The translations under genes and the position numbers were made by a program. DNA of 33,191 bases from Dehalococcoidales bacterium (GTDB taxonomy: Bacteria > Chloroflexota > Dehalococcoidia > Dehalococcoidales > GCA-2688105), in contig NZBQ01000002.1 of assembly GCA_002688105.1 (NCBI GenBank), forward strand, positions 117,393 through 150,583, read 5' to 3'. Positions 1,210 to 11,698 of the stretch are shown one piece after another (positions within the stretch are counted from its first letter, which is position 1; each line of letters starts with the position of its first letter). A model generated the notes under the pieces. The model saw only the letters and a program-made list of their open reading frames with translations, had not been told where the DNA came from and did not search any database.

Positions 1210-2310
1210 CCTTCTCCTCCTACAATACTACGGAGATAAGCAGTTATAAAACCATCCAGTTCCCCGTCTAATACCGCATCGGGATTACTGGTCTGGTAAT
1301 CAGTCCGGTGGTCCTTTACCATTTTATACGGATGGAGGACATAGCTTCTAATCTGGTTACCCCAGCCAGCGGATACATGCTTACCCTTAAAACTGGCTCT
1401 TTCTTTATCTCGCTTAGCCAACTCTAGCTCTAACCGGCGAGACTGGAGTATTTTTAAGGCGGTCTCCTTGTTCTGGTATTGAGAACGCTGACTCTGACAG
1501 GTGGCCACCAAGCCGGTGGGAAGGTGAGTCAACCTAACCGCACTGCTTGTCTTCTGCATATGCTGCCCCCCGGGTCCGCTTGACCTGAACGTTTCCACCT
1601 TTAAATCATCGGGCTCTATACTTACCTCGGTATCGGCTTCAGCTTCAGGCATAACCTCAACCAGAGCAAACGAGGTATGCCGGGCATGGTCAGCATCAAA
1701 AGGAGAAAGGCGAACCAGCCGATGGACGCCGTGCTCTGATTTTAAGTAACCGCAGGCATAAGCTCCTTTAACTCCGATAACCACACTCTTTATTCCGGCC
1801 TCTTCACCAGGAGAAGTATCCAATATCTCAGCTTTATAGCCACGGCGCTCAGCCCAGCGAAGATACATTCTCAGCAGCATCTCCGCCCAATCCTGAGATT
1901 CGGTGCCGCCAGCCCCAGCATGAATAGCCAGCAGAGCATTCATGGCATCGTACTCGCTGGTAAAAGCCGCTTCCAATTCCAGCTCATCAAGGCGAGAGGT
2001 TACTTTATCCACCTCGGACTGAATCTCTTCTCGAAGCGAGGTGTCCTCTTCCTTCAGTGCCAGGGAGACCAATCCAACAAGCTCAGCAACCTTTGTCTCC
2101 AGTCCCCGCCATATCTGCACCACTCTCTTCTGTTCAGCCAGCTGGCGCATAATTCCCTGTGCCTTAATCGGGTCTGACCAAAAATCAGGCTCGGCTGACT
2201 GCTTCTCTAACCGGACAACTTCTTCTTCACGGGCAGCGATGTCAAAGATGCACCAGCGACATAGAAACTCTAGCCCTTAAATCCTCTAATTTATCCCTTA
2301 ACTCCTGCAT
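1206..2310 (-). CDS. prfB: Peptide chain release factor 2 (programmed +1 frameshift)
   Basis: RF2 ends translation at UGA and UAA codons. The main frame (2243 down to 1206) carries the RF2 anticodon-like tripeptide SPF (full-length residues about 202-204) and the catalytic GGQ loop in SGPGGQHMQKT (about 247-249). The gene starts at the ATG at 2310 behind GAGGAAGG. It reads 22 codons to CTT, then TGA at 2244-2242. A +1 slip on CTTTGAC restores the long frame, giving 367 residues, close to the usual ~365. A GGTG sequence just before CAT-CTT-TGA may act as the internal anti-ribosome-stimulating site. This is the classic autoregulatory frameshift of bacterial prfB: scarce RF2 lengthens the pause at its own UGA. 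It sits 21 bp downstream of the endonuclease V gene and overlaps the next gene by 4 bp. Confidence 0.96.
2241..2247 (-). promoter_or_regulatory. prfB: prfB programmed +1 frameshift site
   Basis: The minus strand reads CTTTGAC. Frame 0 from the ATG at 2310 meets TGA as codon 23; shifting by one base continues as GAC-ATC-GCT into the RF2 frame. The heptanucleotide is the same as the conserved bacterial RF2 slip site. Confidence 0.93.
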
Positions 2311-3061: not shown

Positions 3062-3090
3062 ATTATAACGGCAATGAAGGTTGCTGGCAA
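3062..3090 (-). promoter_or_regulatory. Promoter of nfi-prfB-peptidase operon
   Basis: The minus strand reads TTGCCA (3090-3085), a 17-base spacer, then TATAAT (3067-3062), close to the sigma-A consensus. It faces away from the rpsP promoter; the two -35 boxes are 18 bp apart. Confidence 0.75.
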
Positions 3091-3108
3091 CAATACTTTA
3101 AGCTACTA

Positions 3109-3138
3109 TTGACAGTTATGCCCATTATATCGCATAAT
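3109..3138 (+). promoter_or_regulatory. Promoter of rpsP-khpA-rimM
   Basis: TTGACA (3109-3114), an 18-base spacer, then CATAAT (3133-3138). The ribosome site AAGGGGGAGAGG and the rpsP ATG at 3166 follow closely. Confidence 0.75.
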
Positions 3139-3165
3139 GTTAAGTTACAACGAAGGGGGAGAGGT

Positions 3166-3435
3166 ATGGTAAAGATCAGATTACGCCGAGTGGGTGCCAA
3201 AAAAAAGCCAAGCTACCGACTGGTAGCTGCTGATAGTCGGTCTCCCCGCGACGGAGCATTTCTAGACATCATCGGATACTTTAACCCACTAACCGACCCG
3301 GAAACAATAGTTATCGACGAAGAAAAAGCTCTACATTGGCTGAACCATGGGGCTCAACCTACCGCTACTGCTGCCAGATTAATATCAAAGGCAGGCACTA
3401 TGGAAAAGTTCAACAAAATCAAGGAGAAGACATGA
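3166..3435 (+). CDS. rpsP: 30S ribosomal protein S16
   Basis: 89 residues, normal for S16, a small-subunit assembly protein. The N-terminus [18 protein letters not shown] is the family signature, followed by the ADSRSPRDG and GYFNPL blocks and a C-terminal helix with the [12 protein letters not shown] segment. The start at 3166 is fixed by the strong ribosome site AAGGGGGAGAGG and by homology; the open frame upstream to 3016 is not coding because it covers both divergent promoters. The stop overlaps the next start as ATGA. It is the first gene of a short translation operon with khpA and rimM. Confidence 0.97.
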
Positions 3436-3659
3436 AAGAACTAATCGAATACATCGCCAAATCAATTGTGGATGCGCCTGATGAAGTAGTAGTTACTGAG
3501 GAAACCGATGAGGAGGGATTAATACTTAAATTGCAGGTTGCCGATGATGATAAGGGGAGAGTTATTGGTAAGCAAGGCCGAATAGCCGCCGCCATGCGCA
3601 CCTTGATTAGGGTAAAAGCAGCTAAACAAGGCACCAGAGCCACTCTTCAAATCATCTAA
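3432..3659 (+). CDS. khpA: KH-domain RNA-binding protein KhpA
   Basis: 75 residues, a single KH domain. The GXXG RNA-binding loop is GKQG at residues 46-49 within [16 protein letters not shown]. In Gram-positive bacteria KhpA works with KhpB (Jag) as an RNA chaperone linked to growth and cell-size control; the partner is not in this window. The ATG at 3432 overlaps the rpsP stop by four bases and has AAGGAGAAG upstream, so it is coupled to rpsP. Placement between rpsP and rimM is common in bacteria. Confidence 0.93.
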
Positions 3660-3723
3660 GTAATAATAATCCTATAAGCACGAATAGATTTAGACTTACC
3701 AAATCAGCGACCCAGAATCGGGA

Positions 3724-4230
3724 ATGAAATCCTCCAAGCTGGAATTTGTAACTATTGGTCAAATCCTTGCCCCCTGGGGTGTCAAGGGCAAGCTAAAGAT
3801 AGAGGTAGTAACCGATTTCCCTCAACGCTTCGCCCCCGCCTCAAAGGTCTATGTTAACCGACAGCCTGCGACCATTGACAGCACTGAGTGGCATAAGGGC
3901 AAGTTAATCATCAAGCTCAACCAGATTGATACCATTGAAGCGGCACAAAGGCTACGGGGGCAACCTATAGAGATACATTACCGCCAACTCTATCCGCTAC
4001 CTGAAGAGCAATACTACCATTTTCAAATCATCGGGCTAGAGGCATGGACAACCCAGGGAGAACTACTGGGAAAAGTCACTGAAATTTTAACTGCGGAGAG
4101 TAATGACAACTATGTAGTTAACGGAGCCAGAGGAGAGATTCTTATTCCTGCCATTGACGATGTAGTCAAATCGGTTGACCTTGATAGCGGACGGATAACA
4201 ATTGAGCCAATTGAGGGACTACTGCCTTAA
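3724..4230 (+). CDS. rimM: Ribosome maturation factor RimM
   Basis: 168 residues, normal for RimM, which binds S19 and helps mature the head of the 30S subunit. The N-terminal RimM barrel has the motif TIGQILAPWGVKGKLKI (residues about 11-27). The C-terminal PRC barrel starts near residue 95 (YYHFQIIGLEAW) and includes GEILIPAIDDVVKSVD. It lies 64 bp after khpA with only a weak ribosome site (CGGGA), so its expression may be lower. The usual neighbours trmD and rplS do not follow; the next gene, atpC, is convergent with a 32-bp gap. Confidence 0.94.
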   Translation: MKSSKLEFVTIGQILAPWGVKGKLKIEVVTDFPQRFAPASKVYVNRQPATIDSTEWHKGKLIIKLNQIDTIEAAQRLRGQPIEIHYRQLYPLPEEQYYHFQIIGLEAWTTQGELLGKVTEILTAESNDNYVVNGARGEILIPAIDDVVKSVDLDSGRITIEPIEGLLP

Positions 4231-6435: not shown

Positions 6436-7296
6436 CTAAGCCAGAGCCGCCGCCCCACCGATAATGTCAAGAAGCTCCCTGGTTATTGACTCCTGGCGGG
6501 CTTTATTATACAGCAGTGTCAAATGCTCAATAAGCTCATTGGCGTTTTCCGTGGCATTTCTCATCGCCACCATTCTGGCTGACTGCTCACTGGCAATAGA
6601 CTCCAGAATAGCGTGATAAACCTGCATCTCAACAAATCTCGGTAAGAGCTGGCCCAACACCCCCGCCGGTCCTGGCTCATATATATAATCTACATTCTGT
6701 GCGGTAGGTATAACCGCCGGTTCCACGGGAAGTATCTGCTTCACCATCGGTCTCTGAACCATCGTGGAAACAAACTGAGCATGGACTAAATAGACCAAAT
6801 CCACCTCGTCATTAGAGTAACCATCGATAAGAAGACGAGATATAGGTAGGGTATCAAACAGGACGGGGCGGTCACCAAGTCGGGTAAACTCAGCCTTAAT
6901 ATCCCGTCCGTATCGCCTCATAAAATCAAACCCCTTGAGACCAACGGTAATAAGCTCAACCGGCACATCCTTTTCCAGAATAACACTCGCTGTCTTGCGG
7001 TTGATATTAGCCACCAGCCCGCCGCACAAACCCCGGTCAGGGGTAATATGAACGATAGCGATTTTGTGTACCGGCCGACGCTGTAGCAAGGGATGCGGCA
7101 CGGCTCCACCTGCCTCAGCTAAGGCAGCTAAATCGGCCAGTACCTGGGCTATCTTCTCCGAATAAGGGCGCCCGGCTAAACCTCTTTCCTGTGCCCGTCT
7201 CATCTTGGAGGCAGCCACCATCTCCATCGCCCGGGTAATCTTAGCTATGCCCCGGATACCACGTGTCCGGCGGCGAATCAAACGAATATTAATCAA
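6436..7296 (-). CDS. atpG: ATP synthase F1 gamma subunit
   Basis: 286 residues, normal for gamma, the rotating shaft inside the alpha/beta hexamer. The N-terminal helix reads IRLIRRRTRGIRGIAKITRA followed by MEMVAASKMRRA. The GLCGG turn is in TPDRGLCGGLVANINR, and the C-terminal helix has RMVAMRNATENANELI and ITRELLDIIGGAAAL. A GGAGAGGCC ribosome site precedes the ATG. It is separated from atpA by 103 bp that hold a two-hairpin repeat, the widest gap among the F1 genes. Confidence 0.97.
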   Translation of the reverse strand: MINIRLIRRRTRGIRGIAKITRAMEMVAASKMRRAQERGLAGRPYSEKIAQVLADLAALAEAGGAVPHPLLQRRPVHKIAIVHITPDRGLCGGLVANINRKTASVILEKDVPVELITVGLKGFDFMRRYGRDIKAEFTRLGDRPVLFDTLPISRLLIDGYSNDEVDLVYLVHAQFVSTMVQRPMVKQILPVEPAVIPTAQNVDYIYEPGPAGVLGQLLPRFVEMQVYHAILESIASEQSARMVAMRNATENANELIEHLTLLYNKARQESITRELLDIIGGAAALA

Positions 7297-7319
7297 TCTT
7301 TAGGCCTCTCCTTCTTAAT

Positions 7320-7379
7320 CCCCCTCTCCTTAAAAGGAGATGGGGAAAGATGGTTTTTGAAGGGGATCCGCCCCTTCAA
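7320..7379. repeat. Composite two-hairpin repeat, copy A (inside atp operon)
   Basis: Two inverted repeats fill most of the atpA-atpG gap. Hairpin 1 has 12-base arms at 7320-7331 and 7334-7345 (CCCCCTCTCCTT type, one mismatch, 2-base loop). Hairpin 2 has perfect 9-base arms at 7357-7365 and 7371-7379 (TTGAAGGGG/CCCCTTCAA, 5-base loop). Reversed, the arrangement matches the element at 17999-18052, where an AGGGGCG hairpin is followed by a T/A-rich spacer and the CCCCCTCTCCTT hairpin. In the atp mRNA these would be strong hairpins just upstream of atpG. Confidence 0.75.
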
Positions 7380-7399
7380 TCTATCCCAAATAGTGACCT

Positions 7400-8914
7400 C
7401 TACTCCAAACTAAGACCCTGTTTAAATTCCGCAATAGCCATCTTTAATTTCTCTTCAGTTTCAGGAGTAATCTCCTTTTCTCCAGCAATAGCTTTACCTA
7501 TTTCAGGATGATTTGCCCCCATAAACCTATAGAAATCAGCCTCAAAAGCCCCGACCTTATCCACCGGTATATCGTCAAGATAACCGTTAATAGCTGCATA
7601 CAAAATCATAACCTGCTTATCTATCGGCACCGGGACATACTCAGGTTGCTTCAGGATTTCAGTAATTCGTTGGCCCCGCTCAAGCTGAGCTCTGGTGGCT
7701 TTATCCAGCTCAGCGGTACCAAATTGGGCGAAAGCAGCCAGTTCCCGGTATTGAGCCAGCTCCAGCCTCAGCCTACCCGCCACCTGCTTCATCGCCTTGG
7801 TTTGAGCGGCGCTCCCCACCCGGGAAACCGATAAGCCAACATTGAGTGCCGGCCTGATGCCCGCATTGAACAGGTCTGTTTCCACATAAATCTGACCATC
7901 CGTAATTGAAATAACATTAGTCGGAATGTAAGCGGATACATCTCCCGCCTGAGTCTCAATAATCGGCAATGCGGTAAGCGAACCGCCACCATGCTCCGGA
8001 GCATATTTAGCGGATCTCTCCAGCAGACGACTATGCAAATAGAAAACATCGCCAGGGTAAGCCTCCCGTCCCGGCGGACGTTTCAGAAGCAGTGAAAGCT
8101 GACGATATGCCCAGGCATGCTTGGAAAGGTCGTCATAGATAACCAAAGCATCCTTCCCCTGCTCCATAAACCCCTCACCTATAGCACAGCCAGCGTAGGG
8201 AGCCAGATACTGCATTGCCACCGAATCAGCAGCGTTAGCAGCAACCACAATAGTGTGCTCCATCGCTCCGTGTTCCTCTAAAGTGGCTACCACCCGCGCT
8301 ACCTTGGAAGCCTTCTGCCCAATGGCGACGTAGACACAGGTCAAATCACCACCCTTCTGATTGATAATAGTATCCAGGGCAATAGCCGTCTTGCCCGTAG
8401 AGCGGTCACCAATAATAAGCTCTCTTTGTCCCCGACCTAAGGGAATCATGCTATCTATCGCCTTAATACCGGTTTGCACCGGGGTATCCACTGACTTACG
8501 CATGGTGACATTGGGGGCAACACGCTCCATAGGTCGAGTCTTATCCGTCTTTATTGCTCCTCTGCCATCCAGAGGACGACCCAGTGAATCAACCACTCTG
8601 CCAATGAGAGCTTCGCCCACCGGCACCTCAGCAATGCGACCCGTGCACCTAACCTCGTCCCCTTCCTTAATCTCAGTATAATCGCCCAGGATAACCGCCG
8701 CTACACTATCCTCCTCCAGATTCAGGGCAATTCCCATAGTCTCATTAGGAAACTGAAGCAACTCATTATACTTAGCCCCAGCTAACCCGTGAATCCGGGC
8801 AATACCATCACCAATCTCAATCACCGTGCCCACATCCACCATAGTTACTGCCGAGCCGAACTGCTCAATCTGCTGCCTGATAACAGAAGCAATATCCTGC
8901 CCTCTAATTGTCAT
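7400..8914 (-). CDS. atpA: ATP synthase F1 alpha subunit
   Basis: 504 residues, normal for alpha, the non-catalytic nucleotide-binding subunit that supplies the arginine finger. The P-loop is GDRSTGKT (169-176), where most homologues have GDRQTGKT. Other blocks are GMALNLE-like [33 protein letters not shown] and the arginine-finger region [18 protein letters not shown]. It starts 5 bp after atpH. The downstream gap to atpG carries the hairpin repeat. Confidence 0.98.
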
Positions 8915-8919
8915 CTAAT

Positions 8920-9453
8920 TTACCTCCTTGCCAACTCCCTCTTTAATGCCTCTAATTTACTACGGGTACTGCCGTCAAGCAACTTACCACCAATCCTGGC
9001 GATAATCCCGCCGATTATGCTGGAATCCACTTCAGGCTTGATTACCACCTTTTTGCCGACTACAGCCCCGATACGCTCACCCAACCTTAATCTATCTTCA
9101 TCATCAAGGGGAACAGCAGTAATAACCTCAGCCGGCTCTATGCCATGATAGCTATCCAGCAACCGCTGATACTCGTCAGCAATATCGCCCACCATACTCA
9201 ACCTGCCTCTGGTTTGTAGTAGATAAACCAGATTTAGAGCTAGAGGATTTATATCAGCTAATTGTTTGGAGAGGAGCTTGGCCTTAGCCTCAAAATTAAA
9301 TTTAGGGTTCTCAAAAAAAGCAATAACCGTGCTATCCTCACCGAGGCCAGCAACCTTCCTCAGGTCAGACTGCCACCGGTCTAATTCTTTGCTCTCCAGC
9401 GCAATATCAAATACAGCTTGAGCATAGCGCTTGGCATAAAGCCTTCTCGCCAC
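8920..9453 (-). CDS. atpH: ATP synthase delta subunit
   Basis: 177 residues, normal for delta, the peripheral-stalk cap that joins b to alpha. The N-terminal domain starts MARRLYAKRYAQAVFDIALE. The C-terminal family signature is present as DSSIIGGIIARIGGKLLDGSTRSKLEALK. It lies 25 bp after atpF and 5 bp before atpA. Confidence 0.96.
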   Translation of the reverse strand: MARRLYAKRYAQAVFDIALESKELDRWQSDLRKVAGLGEDSTVIAFFENPKFNFEAKAKLLSKQLADINPLALNLVYLLQTRGRLSMVGDIADEYQRLLDSYHGIEPAEVITAVPLDDEDRLRLGERIGAVVGKKVVIKPEVDSSIIGGIIARIGGKLLDGSTRSKLEALKRELARR

Positions 9454-9478: not shown

Positions 9479-9979
9479 CTAGCCCTTTTTCAGGGTGGTG
9501 CTTTCTTTCAACACCTTATCAATAATCTGGCGATGTGCCTTCTTATCCAGTGAGCGGTCAATGACCTTCTCGGCCGCCTTTATGGTTAAGTCGGCAAACT
9601 CCTTGCGCAGCTCACCAATAGCCTCATCCCGCTCTCGCTGAATCTCGGTACGTGCCCGAGCGATGAGCAATTCAGCATCTCGCTTTGCCTCCTGCTGTGT
9701 CTGCTGTCTGACCTCCTCCCCAGTCCGCACTGCCCGGGCGACTAGCTCCTGCCCCTCTTTACCGGCAGCTTCAATTCGTTTCTCAGCCTCTTCTTCGGCA
9801 TGGGCTGCCTGCTCCTTAATAGACTCGGTTTGTTCTATGCTCTCCTTAATCTTCCGGGAGCGCTCGTCAAACATCCTCATAATCGGCTTATAGGCAACCA
9901 GATACAGAAGAACCAGCAGGATAGCAAAATTTATGATTTGAGCTAGCAATGTTGGCAAACTAATGCCAAGACCTTCCAT
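9479..9979 (-). CDS. atpF: ATP synthase Fo b subunit
   Basis: 166 residues, normal for b, the peripheral stalk. One N-terminal membrane helix (about 8-30, with LLAQIINFAILLVLLYLVAY) is followed by KPI and a long charged coiled coil rich in Glu, Lys, Ala and Arg to the C-terminus. Only one b gene is present, so the stalk is probably a homodimer. It follows the 35-residue microprotein gene after 104 bp. AAGGGGAGTAAA before the ATG is the ribosome site. Confidence 0.96.
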   Translation of the reverse strand: MEGLGISLPTLLAQIINFAILLVLLYLVAYKPIMRMFDERSRKIKESIEQTESIKEQAAHAEEEAEKRIEAAGKEGQELVARAVRTGEEVRQQTQQEAKRDAELLIARARTEIQRERDEAIGELRKEFADLTIKAAEKVIDRSLDKKAHRQIIDKVLKESTTLKKG

Positions 9980-10083
9980 TTTACTCCCCTTTTCAACCGG
10001 TTAATGCATAATTAATTAAGCTCTTATAGTTATCCGCACACGCAGTATTGGGACAGACTCCCCGGAAACACCGAGGGTTGTCT

Positions 10084-10191
10084 CTACATAGCTAGAACTG
10101 CAGCTACTATCAGCCCGGCGAGAATCAACACTCCCAATATTGCTCCGGCTAGGATAATACCTATAGACAGAGGGATACCATCTTGTCCCAT
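10084..10191 (-). CDS. 35-residue single-helix microprotein inside the atp operon
   Basis: Not recognised in any family. The frame begins MGQDGIPLSIGIILAG, continues as an unbroken hydrophobic helix with spaced glycines (GAILGVLILAGLIVAAV) and ends LAM. Its ATG at 10191 has a near-ideal ribosome site (GAGGAGGAAGTAATT), stronger than several neighbours, which supports real translation. It lies 22 bp after atpE and 104 bp before atpF in the same direction. It contains one predicted membrane span (about residues 8-34) with a short polar N-terminus and no charged residue in the span. It resembles one helix of a c-subunit hairpin in its small-residue pattern but lacks the ion-binding Glu. It could be an Fo accessory peptide or a c-ring-associated peptide; function is inferred only from place and shape. 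Confidence 0.72.
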   Translation of the reverse strand: MGQDGIPLSIGIILAGAILGVLILAGLIVAAVLAM

Positions 10192-10213
10192 AATTACTTC
10201 CTCCTCAACGTCA

Positions 10214-10444
10214 CTACACAATCATAGCCAGGATAATGGCTATAATCAGGACATAAATCCCGATAGCCTCAGCGAAGGCGGTAACCAAAATCATATTGGT
10301 CATAATTGGTCCCCTCGCCTCAGGATTACGGGACAGTCCCTGTAAAGCCGAGTAACCGATAAGCCCGATAGCCAGCGCTGGTCCTAGCATTCCCAGGCCA
10401 GCCGCCAACCCCACCGCCAACATCTTCATTACTTCCGGAGTCAT
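10214..10444 (-). CDS. atpE: ATP synthase Fo c subunit (rotor ring)
   Basis: 76 residues forming a two-helix hairpin; multiple copies make the rotor ring. Helix 1 has the glycine-rich packing surface (GLAAGLGMLGPALAIGLIG). The polar loop is SRNPEARGP. Helix 2 carries the ion-binding carboxylate E59 in TAFAEAIGIYVLI. The residue after this Glu is Ala, and helix 1 has no Gln in the sodium-ligand position, so proton use is more likely than sodium. The gene lies 41 bp after atpB. Confidence 0.97.
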   Translation of the reverse strand: MTPEVMKMLAVGLAAGLGMLGPALAIGLIGYSALQGLSRNPEARGPIMTNMILVTAFAEAIGIYVLIIAIILAMIV

Positions 10445-10485: not shown

Positions 10486-11448
10486 TTAGTGACCTTCTGC
10501 TCCATGATGAGTCACCGCCAGCGTAAGAAACACCAGAGTTAGCCCACCAAAAATAAGAGCCTGAACAAAGCCGACAAGCAACTCAAGTCCATAAAACGGT
10601 AAAGCCACCACAAAGGGAACCAGAAACATCACTATTAAGAGTAGTATTTCACCAGCAGTCATATTGCCAAAAAGACGGAAGGTAAAACTGACAATGCGAA
10701 TAAATTCGCTTAGCATTTCTAGCATGCCGACAAAAATATCAATAACGCCGGTGAACATACTACTCAAGCCAGCCTTGAGCTTACCACTAAATAGCTGTCG
10801 CGCCCCCCTAAAAAAAGCACCCACATTAACAAATTTTGAAATGTAGCGGCGACCCCCAAGCGACCTTATACCAAAATACTCAACAAAGATAAAAGACATA
10901 AGAGCTATAGCCAGAGGCATATTAATATCGGTGTTAGCTGGCCGCAGCAGGTGTATATGCTCACCCTCATGCCCGGTAACATATATTGAGCCAAACCCGG
11001 GAAACAGACCCAACCAGGCATTGGTTATGACAAAGAGAAAGATAGTAGTTACTACCGGAAAGAACCGGCGTCCGTTTTCCTCACCGGCTACCTCTTTACA
11101 AAAGTCATAAAGCCAGCCCAGGACAGACTCCAAAAAAGACTGTAGCCTTGATGGTATCAGCTTAACCTTACGAGTAGCCGCATAGGACATTCCCACCAGG
11201 ACAATGATGGTAACCCAGGCGGCAATAACACTATTAGCAATAGGAAAGCCAAATATGTGGAAAACTACTTCAGCCGGAAGCTTGGGGTCAGGGCGGGGAA
11301 CAGAAAGCCAGCTAGGTAACCCTAAACCGCCCAGCATACTACTGCCGATAGGACCAACGATAAAACCAATTACGAAAAGAGCCAGAAAAACAACTATAAG
11401 ACCAACTATAACCGGAAAGGAACAACCCAAGCAGCCCCGCTTAGGCAC
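10486..11448 (-). CDS. atpB: ATP synthase Fo a subunit
   Basis: 320 residues, longer than many a subunits (~240-270). The essential stator arginine is R258 in FTFRLFGNMTAGE. The extra length comes from an N-terminal segment with RGCLGCS and an added hydrophobic helix (about 11-35), and a long basic loop (about 195-235, GGRRYISKF...ARQLFSGKLKAG). The start is GTG; it overlaps the stop of the upstream atpZ-like gene by one base (TAGTG), so the two are coupled. The C-terminus ends in ATHHGAEGH-like VTHHGAEGH. Confidence 0.95.
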   Translation of the reverse strand: MPKRGCLGCSFPVIVGLIVVFLALFVIGFIVGPIGSSMLGGLGLPSWLSVPRPDPKLPAEVVFHIFGFPIANSVIAAWVTIIVLVGMSYAATRKVKLIPSRLQSFLESVLGWLYDFCKEVAGEENGRRFFPVVTTIFLFVITNAWLGLFPGFGSIYVTGHEGEHIHLLRPANTDINMPLAIALMSFIFVEYFGIRSLGGRRYISKFVNVGAFFRGARQLFSGKLKAGLSSMFTGVIDIFVGMLEMLSEFIRIVSFTFRLFGNMTAGEILLLIVMFLVPFVVALPFYGLELLVGFVQALIFGGLTLVFLTLAVTHHGAEGH

Positions 11449-11669
11449 TAGCTATTACCTCTTTCTCGCTTATTACCCATAACCGGCAAAAGCATGCGAT
11501 AAACACCATAAAATGCAACCACAATCCCAATAATTAGCCCCACTATCCAGAATAGATTTGTTCCCCGCCAATTATCAAGCCAACGACCCACAAACAACCC
11601 CAAAACAATAGAACCGCCAATAAAGAACCCGACACCTACCAGCCTGAGAGCAGCTACCCACCTACCCAT
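11448..11669 (-). CDS. AtpZ/AtpI-family ATP synthase accessory protein
   Basis: 73 residues with two membrane helices (about 6-28 and 38-63). The motif GLFVGRWLDNWRGTNLFWIVGLIIGI matches the short AtpZ/AtpI group whose members are usually the first gene of atp operons and help c-ring assembly or Mg/Ca transport. The frame opens with a TTG at 11681, but the ATG at 11669 follows GGGGGGTGG, a better ribosome site, and is preferred. The gene is the first of the operon, 30 bp downstream of a consensus promoter. Confidence 0.85.
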   Translation of the reverse strand: MGRWVAALRLVGVGFFIGGSIVLGLFVGRWLDNWRGTNLFWIVGLIIGIVVAFYGVYRMLLPVMGNKRERGNS

Positions 11670-11698
11670 ACCACCCCCCAAATTTCCAATCTAGCGAG

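Follow-up and report, generated by a model that had tools for sequence, protein, structure and literature searches.

An additional gene in an ATP synthase operon

The window (the whole 33,191-nucleotide stretch of Dehalococcoidales DNA that we analyzed) contains an ATP synthase operon on its minus strand. The operon begins with a gene for an AtpZ/AtpI-type protein with two transmembrane (TM) helices (11448..11681; Pfam ATPase_gene1, PF09527, E = 3.6e-11) and continues with atpB (subunit a, 10486..11448), atpE (subunit c, 76 amino acids, with tyrosine at position 31; 10214..10444), a short open reading frame (10084..10191), atpF (subunit b, 9479..9979), and atpH (8920-9453), atpA (7400-8914), and atpG (6436-7296), the last three spanning 6436..9453. 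(We identified atpB, atpH, atpA, and atpG by their sequence and by gene order.) Apart from the short frame, this order is ordinary.

The short frame lies directly downstream of atpE and directly upstream of atpF, and it has 35 codons and a stop, starting with ATG. It encodes a microprotein of 35 amino acids (MGQDGIPLSIGIILAGAILGVLILAGLIVAAVLAM, stop included), with homologues at the same place in other genomes. A first-pass annotation of this DNA had correctly placed a microprotein gene between atpE and atpF but did not state its strand; the gene is on the minus strand, and the plus strand of 10084-10191 contains stop codons. The distance from the stop codon of atpE to the gene is 22 nt, and another 104 nt separate the gene from the start of atpF. 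(This spacer, at 9980-10083, is long for the family, in which it ranges from 7 to 109 nt.) A Shine-Dalgarno site (GAGGAGGAAG; 10197..10206, minus strand) ends 5 nt before the ATG, just as had been described. We found no match to Rfam across the window. The annotation had suggested that standard gene callers could overlook so short a frame; at 108 nt, it exceeds the usual length floor of Prodigal, which is 90 nt.

The protein has two parts: a conserved head, GQDGIP (residues 2-7; 10171..10188, minus strand), and a predicted transmembrane helix (residues 8-34; 10090..10170, minus strand). Given the family alignment, AlphaFold2 predicts one helix, at residues 8-34 (pLDDT 93.7), in agreement with the original reading of the protein as a single helix. 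The protein had also been described as uncharged, which holds for the helix but not for the head, which carries one aspartate (D4). There is no lysine or arginine anywhere in the peptide. Across the family, the head consists of acidic or amide residues and then G-[IL]-P, with the common pattern M-x-[QEN]-[EDN]-G-[IL]-P and a single helix after it. Among 66 distinct sequences that we anchored on P7, G5 is conserved in 91% and position 6 is isoleucine or leucine in 87%. In 70 of 74 sequences, residues 2-7 carry a net charge of −1 to −3.

The helix had been noted for a "GxxxG-like" spacing of glycines, and the actual pattern is more ordered than that: across the family, small residues are paired every 5 residues, at positions 15/16, 20/21, 25/26, and 30/31 (P = 0.006 by permutation, with a range of periods scanned). 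Taking 100 degrees per residue, we found no conserved face of the helix in the family alignment. As a 5-residue period turns about 140 degrees per repeat, the small patches lie on several sides of the helix, which would suit a helix with several neighbors.

Conservation and distribution of the microprotein

We gathered loci by searching for AtpE and then read each gap between atpE and atpF. About 72 of 167 distinct atpE loci from the Dehalococcoidia share the frame, its start, its Shine-Dalgarno site, and the acidic "xxxG[IL]P" head. The homologous frames encode 34-46 amino acids and begin 9-48 nt downstream of atpE. They start with ATG (although our choice of frames preferred ATG), and 73 of the 74 distinct frames in the survey are preceded, at the usual spacing, by a match of 4-8 nt to the anti-Shine-Dalgarno sequence.

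Comparisons between relatives indicate purifying selection on the protein. The genes at loci L148 and L150 differ at 18 nucleotides (2, 0, and 16 at the first, second, and third codon positions), and they encode identical proteins of 36 residues. The same bias towards third positions is seen in the pairs L161/L162 and L180/L195. In close pairs, dN/dS is mostly 0.1-0.5 (median 0.47); some distant pairs have values above 1, but these are near saturation at synonymous sites. Across 19 pairs, mean identity is 0.81 for the frame versus 0.56 for the spacer that follows it, and close pairs have few insertions or deletions in the frame and many in the adjoining spacer. A profile of 38 members of the family, which include the copy in the window, gives that copy a score of 52 bits (E = 9e-14 per genome). 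When this profile was searched against 294 genomes of the class, it gave 28 matches at E < 1e-6, of which 26 lie directly after atpE; below these there is a clear break, followed by chance matches inside longer frames. From these patterns of substitution and conservation, the frame is almost certainly a genuine gene under selection. The first-pass annotation had proposed a real microprotein tied to ATP synthase, to be checked by its conservation at this position in other Dehalococcoidia, by dN/dS, and by a conserved ribosome site, and each of these comparisons came out in its favor.

The annotation had further stated that canonical operons have nothing between atpE and atpF, and the survey bears this out. 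About 95 of the 167 distinct Dehalococcoidia loci lack the gene, with gaps of mostly 10-60 nt, and so do all 11 of the atpE-atpF gaps from other classes of Chloroflexota. Also, among 400 genomes of the phylum, the profile had no match outside of the Dehalococcoidia. As so many loci within the class lack the gene, the microprotein must be dispensable. We mapped its presence and absence on a tree built from subunits a, b, delta, and alpha (FastTree) and counted about 14 changes. (This count took loci L127 and L142 as lacking the gene, but both carry it, so there might be slightly fewer changes.) The scattered presence of a shared sequence implies repeated loss or transfer. One family that lacks the gene (f9) includes many complete genomes of 1.4-2.1 Mb (G009, G083, G131, G101, and others), and its gaps are 22-25 nt. 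Two other gaps contain what might be remnants of the head ("PDNGIPSLMG*" at L044 and NGKGIPMF at L058), which would fit with recent loss, but this is suggestive only. The microprotein is thus probably an accessory protein that many relatives have lost, and not a core subunit.

We noticed some other features of these loci. L035 has a different short frame with a single transmembrane segment in the same position (L035:1753-1860, MIEILQLIWLIVGVLIIVAIGASLGLALFFWLTKER); this frame has no G-[IL]-P head and might not be related. In one family-level group (f82: L042, L044, L049, L050, L068, L084, and L100), the subunit b encoded downstream of atpE starts with a signal peptide like that of a lipoprotein (e.g., MRYRVGLAITIMLLTLLLSGC). 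Finally, the records for L144 and L146 are titled Deltaproteobacteria, which is at odds with their content: the ATP synthase of L146 is Dehalococcoidia-like, and its contig matches G033, which is from the same order as the window.

Copies of the microprotein outside of the ATP synthase operon

In three genera, an orphan gene for subunit c, outside of any ATP synthase operon, has its own microprotein gene. One example is in a complete genome (G018, CP070693.1), where the cassette (L236:4519-5133) is 0.87 Mb from the ATP synthase operon in contig coordinates. It encodes a protein with two transmembrane helices, another subunit c, which has the ion-binding sequence "AEAIGIYAL", and a second microprotein (MEEKGVPSLIMFGFVTLFSTLAILALLISYLVLFGS). 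The two-helix protein is distantly related (E about 1e-5) to the AtpZ-type protein that other genomes encode upstream of atpB. Downstream of the cassette are trp genes on the opposite strand, and there are no genes for a, b, or F1 nearby. G029 has the same cassette (two-helix protein, c, and MDEKGGFPNMPFLVTLGF...; L237, about 3080-3730) amid unrelated genes and away from the genes for a, b, and F1. In G187 and G207, which belong to one genus, c and the microprotein (MNDSSFPTPLFAIG...) are together (L249, about 9020-9400, and L252, about 6850-7200) and separate from the main operons. Thus, two of the cassettes with the microprotein also have an AtpI/AtpZ-like gene, and none of them has stator genes. 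G082 lacks the microprotein in its main operon and likewise in an orphan cassette of an AtpI-like gene and c (L250, about 1560-2110, minus strand).

So, the microprotein gene follows subunit c even outside of the ATP synthase operon, with two exceptions. G062 and G230 contain clear members of the family (MEQEGIPTWIAI... at L275:9403-9507 and MEQEGFPTGLGL... at L276:6-113, both on the minus strand) that are not beside c and instead are next to an operon that resembles NuoE-NuoF-NuoG and formate dehydrogenase. The microprotein gene is codirectional with that operon in one genome and divergent from it, at the edge of a contig, in the other. In the ATP synthase operon of G230, atpE and atpF have no microprotein gene between them; the contig of G062 stops at atpE, and we did not find atpF. 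We examined 28 other NuoE loci and found no microprotein gene. We therefore reject strict exclusivity to atpE, and the link to subunit c is not absolute: either the gene was relocated in these two genomes or the role of the peptide is broader.

We also asked which residues of subunit c vary with the microprotein. Position 31 is tyrosine, phenylalanine, or histidine in 69 of the 69 loci with the microprotein that we scored, versus 22 of the 97 that were called as lacking it (these 97 include L127 and L142, which do carry the gene). Phenylalanine is also found at this position in all four of the orphan c genes with a microprotein. The informative independent pairs of loci all point in the same direction, and they are few (median P = 0.06). 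As these pairs are too few and other columns of c show similar trends, the aromatic residue is only a lead: its association with the microprotein is suggestive but confounded with ancestry. We set aside the idea that it is a specific partner residue for the microprotein because the trend is common to other columns of c.

Possible roles of the microprotein

Our preferred interpretation is that the microprotein is an accessory partner of subunit c, to which we assign a probability of roughly 0.55. Subunit c is its constant companion inside and outside of the operon, and the stator genes are not, which places the peptide with the c-ring. We propose that the peptide would be translated from the same mRNA as c, directly after it, and would insert in the membrane as one helix. 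The head is probably outside, as it is acidic and lacks positive charge. The small-residue patches would then pack against the helices of c, and the peptide would have one of two roles: promoting the assembly of c monomers into a ring, which is what AtpI does, or remaining as a part of that ring, inside it or on it. Of these, a resident helix of the c-ring is a tentative suggestion that we consider unlikely. The same doubt attaches to a bolder version, in which a bacterial F-type c-ring has a resident single-helix component (e.g., in its lumen) and the orphan c-rings, with their helix, work apart from ATP synthase. Some of the data do not sit easily with a partner of c: the copies near Nuo and formate dehydrogenase genes in two genomes are not beside c, the link to the aromatic residue falls short of significance, no one face of the helix is conserved when residues are placed 100 degrees apart, and many atpE genes have no microprotein.

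A second possibility is that the microprotein is an accessory Fo subunit on the stator side, whose helix lies beside those of a and b and stabilizes the a/b/c interface, in a position like that of mitochondrial subunit 8 (A6L). The gene is immediately upstream of atpF, it encodes a single predicted helix, and small single-helix subunits are common in bioenergetic complexes (such as CcoM, PMC10433244, or subunit IIa of ba3 oxidase, PMC3128077). However, the orphan c cassettes carry the gene without any gene for a or b. This favors a partner of the c-ring, whether a resident helix or an assembly factor, over a stator subunit. The first-pass annotation had offered three roles (an Fo subunit, a plug of the c-ring, or an assembly peptide); of these, a plug or an assembly factor is compatible with the cassettes, and a generic Fo subunit on the stator side becomes less likely.

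Third, the microprotein could exist as a free peptide in the membrane. It would then regulate or tune membrane energetics and would not be stably bound in ATP synthase. The two members near a NuoEF/formate dehydrogenase operon and the frequent losses on the tree speak for this. Still, this seems improbable given that 26 of the 28 strong profile matches follow c and that even orphan c genes have kept the gene.

Fourth, the expression of the atp operon must drop from many copies of c to a few copies of b at just the point between atpE and atpF, so the frame could be a leader or spacer whose translation matters and whose product does not, with translational coupling setting the ratio of c to b. 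This is strongly disfavored: the amino acids themselves are kept (18 of 18 differences are synonymous in L148/L150), the G-[IL]-P head is conserved, and the gene also accompanies orphan copies of c that are not followed by atpF. Finally, short frames that look like transmembrane segments easily arise by chance, but a chance origin is refuted by the profile score of 52 bits, the conserved start and Shine-Dalgarno site, the purifying selection, and the decay of the spacer around a frame with few indels.

The F-type ATP synthases of bacteria are regarded as having a fixed and minimal set of subunits. With a conserved additional gene that goes with subunit c, this set would gain a dispensable partner of the rotor or an assembly factor. 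Such a gene would allow tests of what fills or builds the c-ring in bacteria, and it would bring the unexplained orphan c cassettes into view. The frequent losses provide natural comparisons, with and without the gene, between close relatives.

Comparison with other small membrane proteins

We found no paper that describes this gene in the literature that we searched, which was mostly from outside of subscription journals. (One paper marks atp loci with unspecified "hypothetical intervening ORFs", but the Dehalococcoidia are absent from its main text; PMC4154653.) Searches of 38 members of the family gave best E values of 0.0076 against Pfam and 0.05 against NCBIfam, each for one member, with matches that were scattered over unrelated families and none for the copy in the window. 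The best match in a sequence search of the PDB was the transmembrane helix of a TNF receptor (E = 5.9), and a fold search of the PDB with Foldseek gave no match, although a lone helix is weakly searchable. The gene is real, conserved, and undescribed in the sources searched.

The closest parallels within atp operons are other small membrane proteins: AtpI/UncI and AtpZ/AtpQ (PF03899 and PF09527) and AtpR (PF12966). AtpI/UncI acts in the assembly of the c-ring (PMC9806626, PMC4154653), and two of the orphan cassettes contain an AtpI/AtpZ-like gene together with that for the microprotein. However, AtpI, AtpZ, and AtpR have at least two helices and are encoded upstream of atpB, whereas the microprotein has one helix, is encoded after atpE, and matches none of their models. 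We rejected its identity with AtpI/UncI or AtpZ on these grounds (there is no match to PF03899 or PF09527), and a separate PF09527 gene is already present in the operon in the window.

Mitochondrial Fo also has supernumerary single-helix subunits (8/A6L and others), but we found no sequence or fold match to them in the PDB, and the orphan c cassettes disfavor an association with the stator. We found no report of a single-helix subunit of a bacterial F-type ATP synthase in the literature searched. In the V-ATPase, single helices from accessory proteins (AP1, also known as Voa1 or ATP6AP1, and AP2) sit in the middle of the rotor ring (PMC10003446), which is a precedent for an accessory helix inside a rotor ring. 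These are transmembrane parts of larger eukaryotic proteins, and the microprotein has no sequence relation to them.

In bacteria, other bioenergetic complexes have small single-helix subunits of about 30-40 residues, to which the microprotein is similar in form. CydX and KdpF are such subunits, and their genes lie beside those of the complex that they serve. CcoM of cbb3 oxidase (PMC10433244) and subunit IIa of ba3 oxidase (PMC3128077) are others. Although we detected no sequence relation to any of these four, the microprotein likewise has one predicted transmembrane helix and is encoded in the operon of its putative complex, and by analogy it may resemble the CcoM-type subunits in its way of working.
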